From positions 930,001 to 994,000 of the forward strand of contig CP052876.1 in the NCBI GenBank assembly GCA_020881835.1: 64,000 nucleotides of DNA. Reading direction: 5' to 3'. The notes under the pieces are model-generated. The model was not told where the DNA came from. It made no database searches and saw nothing but the letters and a program-made list of their open reading frames with translations. The DNA comes from Kineosporiaceae bacterium SCSIO 59966 (GTDB taxonomy: Bacteria > Actinomycetota > Actinomycetes > Actinomycetales > SCSIO-59966). Numbering within the stretch: position 1 is the stretch's first letter; each line of letters begins with the position of its first letter. The translations under genes and the position numbers were made by a program. Of this stretch, positions 32,356 through 36,242 are shown in pieces.

Positions 32356-33222
32356 GTGCTGCGCCAGCCCGTGACGGTGCTGGACGACGCCGCCGCCGGC
32401 GCCGTCCTGGAGCTGTGCGAGCAGGACCCCGTCGCCAACGTGTTCGTGTCCTCCCGGGTCGCCGCCGTCGGCTGCGACCCGCGCCGGCTCGGCGGGGAGC
32501 TGTGGGGGTACTGGCGGCGGGGTCGGCTGCGGGCCGCGTGCTGGGCGGGCGCCAACCTCGTCCCGGTCGGGGTCGACGACGTCGCGGTCGACGCGTTCGC
32601 CGCTCGCGCGCGGCGCCAGGGTCGCCGGTGCTCCTCGCTGGTCGGCCCGGCCGAGGGCGTGCTCGCGCTGTGGGACCGGCTCGAGCCCGCGTGGGGGCCG
32701 GCGCGCGACGTCCGGCCCGACCAGCCGCTGCTCGCCATCGCCGCCGACCCGCTGGTCGCGCCGGACCCCGCCGTCCGGGCGACCACCGAGGCCGACCTCG
32801 ACCTGCTGTACCCGGCCTGCGTGGCGATGTTCACCGAGGAGGTCGGGTACTCCCCGGAGACCGGGGACGGCGGCGCGACCTACCGGCGCCGGGTCGCCGA
32901 GCTCGTCCGGCTCGGTCGCTCGTTCGCCCGCATCGACGAGGTGGACGGCCGCCGGCGGGTCGTGTTCAAGGCCGAGCTCGGCGCGGTCGCCCCCGGCGTC
33001 GTCCAGGTCCAGGGCGTGTGGGTGCACCCGGCGCTGCGCGGTCGCGGGCTCGCCGCACCGGGGATGGCCGCGGTCGTCGCGCTCACCAGGGAGCGGTTCA
33101 CCTGGGCCGGCCGGGACACCGTCGTCAGCCTCTACGTCAACTCGTTCAACCGGCGAGCCGTCGCCGCCTACGAACGGGTGGGGATGCAGCACGTCGGGCG
33201 CTTCGCCACCGTCCTGTTCTGA
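32356..33222 (+). CDS. GNAT N-acetyltransferase with N-terminal DUF4081-like domain
   Basis: The 288-residue protein has a ~130-residue N-terminal DUF4081-like part (QDPVANVFVSSRV), then a GNAT domain. Acetyl-CoA-binding motifs are VQGVWVHPALRGRGLAAPGM near residues 215-235 and SLYVNSFNRRAVAAYERVGM near the end. The acceptor is unknown. The gene follows ispG with 1 base between, as in many actinobacteria. Its last codons form the first copy of a 20-bp unit repeated three times across and beyond the stop. Confidence 0.82.
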   Translation: MLRQPVTVLDDAAAGAVLELCEQDPVANVFVSSRVAAVGCDPRRLGGELWGYWRRGRLRAACWAGANLVPVGVDDVAVDAFAARARRQGRRCSSLVGPAEGVLALWDRLEPAWGPARDVRPDQPLLAIAADPLVAPDPAVRATTEADLDLLYPACVAMFTEEVGYSPETGDGGATYRRRVAELVRLGRSFARIDEVDGRRRVVFKAELGAVAPGVVQVQGVWVHPALRGRGLAAPGMAAVVALTRERFTWAGRDTVVSLYVNSFNRRAVAAYERVGMQHVGRFATVLF

Positions 33223-33272
33223 GGCCCCCGGCCCTGTTCTGAGGACCCCGGCCCTGTTCTGAGGACCCCGGC
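33213..33272. repeat. Three tandem 20-bp units spanning the GNAT stop codon
   Basis: Units at 33213-33232, 33233-33252 and 33253-33272 each read CCTGTTCTGAGG followed by (C/A)CCCCGGC. The second and third are identical; the first differs by one base. Each carries the TTC-TGA end of the GNAT gene, so the gene's 3' end has been copied twice. The third unit stops two bases before the large palindrome at 33275. Confidence 0.9.
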
Positions 33273-33274
33273 GG

Positions 33275-33359
33275 TGATCGCCACCGGGGGAGGAGTCGCA
33301 GCCCGCAGCGGCCTCGCGCACGCCCTGGCGGGCTCCGACTCCTCCCCACCTGGCGATCA
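33275..33359. repeat. 85-bp near-perfect palindrome, copy 1 (possible bidirectional terminator)
   Basis: The arms pair in four steps. They are TGATCGCCA with TGGCGATCA (9 bp), a 3-base mismatch, GGGGAGGAGTCG with CGACTCCTCCCC (12 bp), a 1-base mismatch, and AGCCCGC with GCGGGCT (7 bp). A 21-base loop remains. The right end includes the stop codon of the minus-strand gene 33357-34259. A related element (34264-34347) lies just beyond that gene's start. It may act as a terminator for the two convergent genes, or be a mobile repeat. Confidence 0.85.
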
Positions 33360-34259
33360 GCCCGCGACGTCGCGCAGCACCCCGATCACCCACTCCTGGT
33401 CGAGCATGACGTCCTCCCAGGCGAACCGCCGCACCGTCCACCCGGCGCGCACCAGCTCGTCGTAGCGGCGGGCGTCCCGGCGCAGCGCCCTGCGGTCGCC
33501 GTGCCACTCGAAGGAGTCCGCCTCGAGCACGACGCGTCGCCGCCGGTCGGCGAGGTCCACCCGGGCCGGGCGCCCCGCGTCGATGCGGACCTGCGGCTCG
33601 AAGCCCGTGCAGCCGGCGCTCAGCGCGAGCCCGCGCAGGGCCGACTCGAACGGGTTGGCCGCCCGGCCGTCGGCGTGCTCGGCGACCCAGCAGGCGGCGC
33701 GCCGGCCCCGACGTCGGCGAACGGCCGCCGCCAGGAGGTCCTCCCGGTGGACGAGCCCGAGCCGCAGCGCCCCGTCGGCCACCGCAAGAGCCTCCAGCCG
33801 GTCGAGGTCGGCAGCACAGTCCAGCACCGTCCGCAGCGGGGTCGTCACCGCTGCGCGCCGCTCGACGTCGGCGGGGGCCAGCGACCGCCAGCGGTACACG
33901 ACGTCCGACCGGGGCGGGGGGTGGGCGTTGGGCGGCACCGTGACGGACGCGGTCTCGGGCGGCAGCAGCAGCGGCAGCCGGTGCTGCTCGGCGGCGGACA
34001 GGTGGCTCACCACCCCGCCGCACCGCGCCGCCACCTCTCGGGCGGTGGGCAGCTCGGGCAGGGCGTACACGCCGCGCGCCGCGCGCAGCACGAGCCCGGC
34101 CTGCAGCGCCGAGCGCAGCGCGTGCTGGGTCACGTGCTCCGCCAGCTGCGTCCACGTCGCCGTGCCGCCGTGCCGGCGCACCACCATCTCGGGGGTCAGG
34201 CCCGTCCGCACCCGGCTGAGCGTGCCGCGCGCCGCAGGGTCCCCGCGCTCGTCGTCCAC
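33357..34259 (-). CDS. AbiEi-like N-terminus plus DUF559 (nuclease-fold) protein
   Basis: The product is about 300 residues. The N-terminal part ([27 protein letters not shown]) resembles the winged-helix of AbiEi-type antitoxins. The C-terminal part ([55 protein letters not shown]) has the E...D...E-x-D pattern of DUF559/Vsr-like endonuclease folds. GTG at 34259 gives the longest supported protein; GTG 34211 and ATG 34187 are alternatives. No partner toxin gene is adjacent. It is framed by two related palindromes and interrupts the GNAT-proS neighbourhood, which suggests insertion. Function unknown. Confidence 0.7.
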
Positions 34260-34263
34260 AGGC

Positions 34264-34347
34264 GATCGCCACCGCAGGAGGTGGAACCGCGGAGCGCGCG
34301 CCGCGGTTCGGGGCCGGCAGCGCGGAACTCCTCCTGGCGTGGCGATC
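34264..34347. repeat. 84-bp palindrome, copy 2, upstream of the DUF559 gene
   Basis: The outer arms GATCGCCAC (34264-34272) and GTGGCGATC (34339-34347) pair perfectly. After a 3-base mismatch, AGGAGG pairs with CCTCCT. An inner hairpin AACCGCGG/CCGCGGTT occupies 34285-34308. The outer arm sequence and the GGAGG/CCTCC step match the element at 33275-33359; the loops differ. It lies 5 bases beyond the likely start codon of the DUF559 gene. Confidence 0.8.
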
Positions 34348-34404
34348 ACCCGAGCCGGGCCGGGCAGGTGCAGGGCGGCGGGGCGGCAGGGTGGCGGGGG
34401 AGCC

Positions 34405-34436
34405 GGGGCGGCGGGGCGGCGGGGCGGCGGGGCGGC
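34405..34436. repeat. GGGGCGGC tandem repeat (four perfect copies)
   Basis: The 8-bp unit GGGGCGGC is repeated four times exactly, with degenerate copies on both sides (about 34376-34456). It lies 43 bases before the proS start, upstream of its predicted -10 box. Copy number could vary by slippage and alter proS promoter spacing. Confidence 0.85.
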
Positions 34437-34465
34437 AGTGCGGCAGGGCGGGGCGGGCTCGTCGC

Positions 34466-34471
34466 TAGGCT
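34466..34471 (+). promoter_or_regulatory. Predicted -10 box of proS (leaderless)
   Basis: TAGGCT ends 7 bases before the proS ATG, with no Shine-Dalgarno sequence between, so a leaderless transcript is likely. Confidence 0.5.
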
Positions 34472-34478
34472 CCGGCCC

Positions 34479-36242
34479 ATGATCCTGCGGATGTCGTCCC
34501 TGTTCCTGCGCACCCTGCGCGAGGACCCGGCGGACGCCGAGGTGCCCAGTCACCGGCTGCTCGTGCGGGCCGGTTACATCCGCCGTGCGGCCCCGGGCAT
34601 CTACAGCTGGCTGCCGCTCGGCGTCCGGGTGCTGCGCAACGTGGAGCGGATCGTCCGCGAGGAGATGGACGCCATGGGCGCCCAGGAGGTGCACTTCCCG
34701 GCGCTGCTGCCCCGAGAGCCCTACGAGGCCACCGGGCGCTGGACCGAGTACGGCCCGAACCTGTTCCGGCTCACCGACCGCAAGCAGGGCGACTACCTCC
34801 TCGGCCCCACCCACGAGGAGATGTTCACCCTGCTCGTCAAGGACCTGTACTCCTCGTACAAGGACCTGCCGCTGTCCCTCTACCAGATCCAGACCAAGTA
34901 CCGGGACGAGGCGCGTCCCCGTGCCGGCCTGCTGCGCGGCCGCGAGTTCGTCATGAAGGACTCCTACTCCTTCGACGTCGACGACGCCGGCCTCGAGCGC
35001 TCCTACCGGGCCCACCGCGACGCCTACGTGCGGATCTTCGACCGGCTCGGCATGGACTACGTCATCGTCACCGCGATGTCCGGGGCGATGGGCGGGTCGG
35101 CCAGCGAGGAGTTCCTCGTGCCGGCCGTCAACGGCGAGGACACCTACGTGCGGTGCACGCGCTGCGACTACGCCGCGAACGTCGAGGCCGTCCGGGTCCC
35201 CGTCCCCGAGCCGGTGCCGGCCGGCGACGCACCCGCCGCCCACGTCGAGGACACCCCCGGTACGCCGACCATCGACACCCTCGTCGACCACCTCAACGAG
35301 CGGTTCCCCCGCGCGGACCGGCCGTGGACCGCCGCCGACACGCTGAAGAACGTCCTCGTCGTCCTCGTCCACCCCGACGGCCGGCGCGAGCCGCTCGCCG
35401 TCGGCCTCCCCGGCGACCGTGACGTCGACGAGAAGCGCCTGGCGGCACAGGTGGAGCCCGCGGTCGTCGAGCCGTTCACCGAGGCCGACTTCGCGGCGAA
35501 CCCCGTGCTGCGCAAGGGCTACATCGGCCCCGGCGTGCTCGGGACCGACCGCGCCAGCGGCGTCCGCTACCTCCTGGACCCCCGGGTCGTCGACGGCACA
35601 CGGTGGGTGACCGGCGCCGACCAGGACGGCCGGCACGTGCTCGGCCTCGTCGCCGGCCGTGACTTCACCGCGGACGGCACGATCGAGGCGGCCGAGGTCC
35701 GTGACGGCGACCCCTGCCCCCAGTGCGGCGGGGCGCTGGAGTCCGCCCGGGGCATCGAGATGGGCCACGTGTTCCAGCTCGGCCGCAAGTACGCCGAGTC
35801 CCTCGGGCTGCGGGTCCTCGACGAGAACGGCAAGCTCGTCACGGTGACCATGGGGTCCTACGGGATCGGCGTGTCCCGTGCCGTCGCCGCGATCGTCGAG
35901 AACAGCCACGACGACCTCGGCATCGTCTGGCCCCGCGCCGTCGCGCCGGCCGACGTCCACCTCGTCGCGGCCGGCAAGGACGCCTCGGTGCTCGAGGCCG
36001 CCGCAGCCCTCGCCGACGACCTCGACGCGGCCGGCCTCACCGTCCTGCACGACGACCGGCCCCGGGTGAGCCCCGGGGTGAAGTTCAAGGACGCCGAGCT
36101 CATCGGCGTCCCGACCGTCGTCACGGTCGGACGCCGGCTGGCGGACGGCGTGGTGGAGGTCACCGACCGCGCCACCGGTGAGCGCTCCGACGTGCCGGTG
36201 GCGGACGCGGCCGCGCACCTCGTCGCCGTGTGCCGCGGCTGA
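34479..36242 (+). CDS. proS: Prolyl-tRNA synthetase (bacterial type with editing insert)
   Basis: The 587-residue class IIa synthetase charges tRNA-Pro. Motif 2 is in [18 protein letters not shown], followed by VMKDSYSFD. The INS editing domain that hydrolyses Ala-tRNA-Pro lies between about residues 230 and 390. Motif 3 is [14 protein letters not shown], followed by the anticodon-binding domain. The ATG at 34479 begins the family N-terminus [15 protein letters not shown]; the open frame extends upstream without homology. A GGGGCGGC repeat and a TAGGCT box lie upstream. Confidence 0.95.

Follow-up and report, generated by a model that had tools for sequence, protein, structure and literature searches.

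A DUF559/AbiEi-like gene framed by two related palindromes in SCSIO 59966, a probable member of a REPIN-like family in Actinomycetota

Why should a gene for a nuclease-like protein lie between two copies of one long palindrome? The question is raised by a DUF559/AbiEi-like gene of Kineosporiaceae bacterium SCSIO 59966, found between a GNAT gene and proS in the 64-kb stretch of DNA analyzed here (the window). A first-pass annotation described two related palindromes of about 85 nt framing this gene, with common outer arms, a GGAGG/CCTCC step and different loops, and these are indeed present (Table 1). Copies b and c both contain GATCGCCA-N5-GGAGG and its complement, differ in their centres and form strong GC-rich hairpins. 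The 32-nt arms of copy b (33275-33306 and 33328-33359) are 88% complementary, and no other long inverted repeat of the whole window pairs as well as copy b (32 nt, 88%); the arms of copy c (34261-34281 and 34330-34350) are 86% complementary. As had also been seen, the stop codon of the gene lies inside one palindrome: the TGATCGCCA end of copy b provides it (TGA, 33357-33359, minus strand). Adjoining copy b, the end of the GNAT gene carries tandem repeats of a 20-bp unit (about CCCCGGCCCTGTTCTGAGGA; window 33206-33279).

The other palindrome had been placed 5 bases from the likely start of the gene, a distance that holds only for the GTG start listed in Table 1. The ATG (residue 25 in GTG-start numbering) is the likelier start, because residues 1-22 from the GTG are modelled by AlphaFold2 as disordered, at low confidence, and the alignments of homologues begin at about residue 8-28 of the same numbering. 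The palindrome would then be about 75 bp away.

Table 1. Features of the palindrome-framed locus (window coordinates)
Feature	Position	Strand	Remarks
GNAT gene (DUF4081)	32356..33222	+	Left neighbour of slot, conserved; Pfam DUF4081 3e-45
Palindrome copy b	33275..33359		3' of DUF559/AbiEi-like gene; R1 model E 8e-17
DUF559/AbiEi-like gene	33357..34187	-	276 codons from ATG 34185-34187; 300 from GTG 34257-34259
Predicted domains of DUF559/AbiEi-like gene	33357..34187	-	N-terminal AbiEi-type winged helix and C-terminal Vsr/EDxHD-like nuclease (Pfam, PADLOC, AlphaFold2, Foldseek)
Palindrome copy c	34263..34348		5' of DUF559/AbiEi-like gene, in gene/proS gap; R1 model E 7e-15
proS	34479..36242	+	Right neighbour of slot, conserved

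The encoded protein scores above cut-off for the Pfam models AbiEi_4 and DUF559 (the latter at 24.2 bits vs 20.6) and below it for REase_MTES_1575, and it has a PADLOC AbiEi match at 2e-14. The AlphaFold2 model, from 39 aligned sequences, has a pLDDT of 93. With Foldseek the N-terminal part matches AbiEi (6y8q, E 6e-5), the catalytic domain of I-Bth0305I is also matched (3r3p, TM 0.78 normalised to that domain, 2.5 A), and Vsr (1cw0, 1vsr) matches the C-terminal fold; the two nuclease matches have weaker E-values than that of AbiEi and high probability, and the nuclease part is also identified by a profile search. In the alignment of homologues E205 is fully conserved and D235, E246, D248 and R265 almost fully. 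Sequence match, likeness of fold and conserved acidic residues together assign the protein to the DUF559/Vsr-like nuclease superfamily. The protein is confidently modelled as an AbiEi-type DNA-binding domain fused to a Vsr/I-Bth0305I-like nuclease. Since AbiEi antitoxins bind palindromes in their own promoters and so autoregulate (PMC11062541), recognition of the palindrome by the N-terminal part is plausible.

The palindrome is not confined to this locus. Pattern and covariance-model searches of the 3.1-Mb genome found nine full copies of 85-87 nt, with one of 99 nt, and the covariance model returned exactly these nine (E 1e-17 to 1e-12). The pattern GATCGCCA-N50-80-TGGCGATC has six forward matches genome-wide, five of which are family members, and the reversed-pattern control has none. 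The nine copies start with TGATCGCC or CGATCGCC and have no 5' GT(A/G)G head. Two frame the DUF559/AbiEi-like gene; the remaining seven are solo and intergenic (genome positions 624536, 1024074, 1057915, 1798418, 2680524, 2751354 and 2812614), with no DUF559/AbiEi family gene adjoining any of them, and their gaps lie between divergent, convergent and co-directional gene pairs alike. Along the genome the nine show no more than a hint of clustering (p 0.08; nearest pair, p 0.02). Palindromes away from DUF559 genes had been named in advance as evidence against a gene-plus-repeats unit, and taken narrowly 7/9 copies are so placed, but solo copies are expected under REP logic. Beside two of the full solo copies, left-end partial copies stand in tandem (L036 1843-1916 and L034 2002-2038), as if produced by slippage or repeated insertion. 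The covariance model gave no convincing match, and four weak single near-threshold ones, among 296 other genomes of the order, and none of the sequences in the named genome and viral collections fits the strict pattern.

Within the nine-copy family the centres vary, whereas no copy departs from the others in the outer seven pairs or the GGAGG/CCTCC step. On average, left inner arms pair better with their own right arm than with those of other copies (mean -22.9 vs -18.8 kcal/mol, permutation p 0.0006). A seven-copy family from a different genome shows compensatory changes, with both sides altered and pairing kept, at 8 of its 34 stem pairs; as these copies are related, the shuffles serve only as a guide. 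REPIN hairpins likewise show compensatory changes (PMC3116915).

Among relatives the order ispG-GNAT-proS is conserved, and the GNAT-proS gap (window 33223-34478) is a slot whose content varies within the order, being empty or holding DUF559/AbiEi-like, glycosylase-like, permease-like or other genes. Three of the closest homologues occupy this same gap: in G017 and G034, as in SCSIO 59966, gene and proS are on opposite strands, and in G006 the gene shares the strand of proS and lies past a permease-like gene. In other relatives the gap contains a formamidopyrimidine-glycosylase-like gene or others, or is empty (47-300 bp), so that the empty sites sought at the outset do exist. The SCSIO 59966 palindrome sequence is absent from the relatives with the gene in the gap. 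Occupancy of the slot without the repeats had been proposed as a refutation of the unit; this palindrome is indeed missing there, but inspection for any inverted repeat overturned the refutation, each gene in G017, G034 and G006, and in G025 at a different place, lying between its own, different palindrome pair.

Family members occur in 41/119 sampled genomes of the phylum, with up to 14 per genome. Framing was scored as the similarity of left flank to right flank at two cut-offs, 15 and 18, both quoted because GC-rich coding DNA by itself gives a genuine background of flank similarity. In a first set, 40/50 family genes reached 15, vs 1% of 400 cross-genome pairs, and 35/50 reached 18, vs 0 of 400. 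A second set of 48 loci, mainly of other orders and classes and taking in one re-captured first-set gene (L253), one same-order locus (L263) and two further SCSIO 59966 genes, gave 32 at 15 and 30 at 18, vs 0.8% and 0% of mismatched pairs. Related flanks are present at 5/5 family genes found in the SCSIO 59966 genome. Controls were 1/23 for GNAT genes at 14, 4/47 for shifted windows, 3/43 for neighbouring genes at 15, and 5/32 at 15 and 0/32 at 18 for genes of the window itself, which is GC-rich; at the stricter cut-off, in-genome control genes gave 0/32 to 3/43 vs 35/50 and 30/48 for the family. A clear flank pair is missing at 10/50 and 16/48 family genes, and wrong start calls may lie behind some of these. 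The association of the family gene with palindromes is near certain. In two loci of other classes (L280, L259) the family genes are flanked by tandem or multi-copy repeats, not one clean hairpin. A homologue search found no match on plasmids, and an unannotated phage record (MT837367.1, 3929-4729) codes for a 48% identical homologue.

In most framed loci one flanking copy lies at or near the 3' end or stop codon of the gene, an arrangement that bears on two functional explanations. If the palindromes were operators, bound by an AbiEi-like protein that represses its own gene, the solo copies would form its regulon; the autoregulation of AbiEi through promoter palindromes (PMC11062541) and the copy upstream of the gene agree with this. 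The second copy at the 3' end does not, nor do solo sites in divergent, convergent and co-directional gaps or the conservation of nuclease residues, and near-identical full-length copies with sharp ends look copied rather than evolved in place; we regard operators as unlikely. The palindromes might instead act as terminators or RNA hairpins, insulating an acquired gene and unlinked to the activity of the protein, as the strong GC-rich hairpins and the copy ending near the stop codon would allow. However, copies also lie upstream of the gene, and solo between divergent genes, termination requires no sequence identity between the two flanking copies or with distant solo copies, and Rfam has no match for the palindromes, which makes this explanation very doubtful. 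An RNA-family reading was set aside for want of an Rfam match, and a terminator-only reading as a poor fit to the gene orientations around the palindromes.

The palindromes also appear to be private to their genes. With 24 gene-flanking palindromes as a composite query against 15 genomes, the matches listed reach about E 3e-10; among these, every one falls in its palindrome's own genome, and most of the 24 palindromes have further solo copies. Excluding flanking copies, the solo copies among the matches listed number at least about 11 in G020 and the same in G003, at least 7 and at least 2 for two families of G026, at least 5, 4, 2 and 2 for four families of G007, at least 5 in each of G004 and G024, and 1-3 in several more; L033, L065 and L067, among others, have no solo copy among the matches listed. 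More copies would be expected of a mobile element. The solo loci examined hold no family gene, and the copies stop sharply at the palindrome edge, the surrounding sequence being unrelated; at solo copies no target-site duplication is visible and no target motif was seen. Near-orthologues from two species (75% identity) share palindrome arms and same-genome paralogues do not, and the palindromes of other families start with sequences unrelated to that of SCSIO 59966. In a single case, L302 (694-780 and 1721-1807; G026:C2:428193-429306), two solo copies lie around a gene outside the DUF559/AbiEi family, which might reflect two insertions close to each other.

Solo copies, empty sites and framing would equally result if the gene were cargo between two miniature inverted-repeat elements moved by another transposase. 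Against cargo, the framed gene belongs to the DUF559/AbiEi family in nearly every case, the palindrome sequence is particular to each gene, the flanking copies show no preferred orientation (14 direct vs 12 inverted), target-site duplications were not seen at solo copies, and framing is rare at control genes. Cargo is in our judgement distinctly improbable. In the SCSIO 59966 genome no Y1/HUH transposase was found (no PF01797, Y1_Tnp), and a search there for a RAYT gave nothing.

G007 belongs to another genus, and 18 genomes of that genus were searched for empty sites. The queries were the flanks of one G007 gene unit and of eleven solo copies, each left flank joined to its right flank. Four genomes (G185, G298, G043 and G304) match the gene-unit query continuously over the junction, showing an empty site, and several solo copies (e.g., L213, L202 and L211) have empty sites in G185 or G305. 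Identity around these sites is mostly 76-84%, too diverged for exact insertion points. Insertion in G007 is likelier than loss in all other congeners, though not proven.

RAYT proteins are thought to spread or maintain REP repeats. In REP/RAYT systems a nuclease gene lies between two short palindromes, solo copies of which are dispersed in the genome, and the REPIN hairpins of about 70-90 nt have conserved ends and a variable centre, the palindromes diverging along with the RAYT protein (PMC2817692, PMC3116915). The present system resembles them in its gene flanked by two repeat copies, its dispersed extragenic solo copies, its hairpins, which keep their ends, vary in the centre and show compensatory changes, and the divergence of its palindromes along with the protein. 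It differs in its enzyme (AbiEi plus Vsr-like, not Y1/HUH), in flanking copies that are direct or inverted, where those of REP/RAYT are always inverted, in the lack of a GTAG head in the SCSIO 59966 palindromes, and in copy numbers of about 2-13. The system would work like REPIN/RAYT, yet the lack of a Y1/HUH enzyme, of a GTAG head and of a single flanking orientation places it outside that group. The gene-plus-repeats unit with REP/RAYT logic put forward in the first-pass annotation is supported, framing being found in most family members across the phylum.

Other known systems share parts of the design. The EDxHD homing endonuclease I-Bth0305I has a similar catalytic-domain fold and selfish-DNA context, but the present gene is outside any intron or intein and is linked to palindromic repeats. 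AbiEi type IV antitoxins resemble the N-terminal part (6y8q and PADLOC AbiEi models); unlike AbiE toxin-antitoxin loci, this one has a nuclease fusion and no adjacent AbiEii toxin gene, its neighbours being GNAT and proS. The very-short-patch repair endonuclease Vsr shares the C-terminal fold (1cw0, 1vsr) and lacks the additional DNA-binding domain and the palindrome association. A classical transposon would not have the mixed repeat orientation, or solo copies free of target-site duplications. A full-text search of the open-access literature, with preprints and most subscription papers outside its range, found no published description of such a system.

On balance we think it probable that the SCSIO 59966 locus belongs to a widespread actinobacterial REPIN-like family, made up of an AbiEi plus Vsr-like gene, the palindromes that frame it and usually solo copies, with a proposed capacity for self-dispersal. 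We favour, with moderate confidence, the view that this family is a new class of selfish repeat, convergent with REPIN/RAYT and common in Actinomycetota, in which the AbiEi-Vsr/homing-endonuclease-like protein would maintain and disperse a private hairpin. The palindromes of the system form hairpins of 50-115 nt, two per gene. Binding of the palindrome by the protein is inferred, as are cutting and dispersal, the last two because the protein has a nuclease domain, the pairing is private and solo copies exist. The mobility mechanism, which we hold to be somewhat more credible than its opposite, would have the AbiEi-like part bind its own palindrome and the Vsr-like part make a cut or nick in DNA, either at the extruded or single-stranded palindrome or at a target, after which the hairpin would be copied into a new intergenic site by repair or replication; occasionally the gene would travel with its palindrome pair.

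Domains of the AbiEi and restriction-like kinds are characteristic of genome-conflict systems, and the palindromes could serve defence or self-recognition by marking the host genome for the nuclease. The copies are few, some families have no solo copy among the matches listed, and no conserved partner gene stands beside the DUF559/AbiEi-like gene at this locus; we give such a role very little credence.

The private palindrome link provides a first testable role for DUF559/AbiEi-like genes, which are common in the phylum, and it offers an origin for the lineage-specific intergenic palindromes of these genomes. Because each gene names its own substrate, specificity is directly testable. The enzyme may spread or maintain its own repeat, and the system would then be a second, non-homologous answer to the problem that RAYTs solve.
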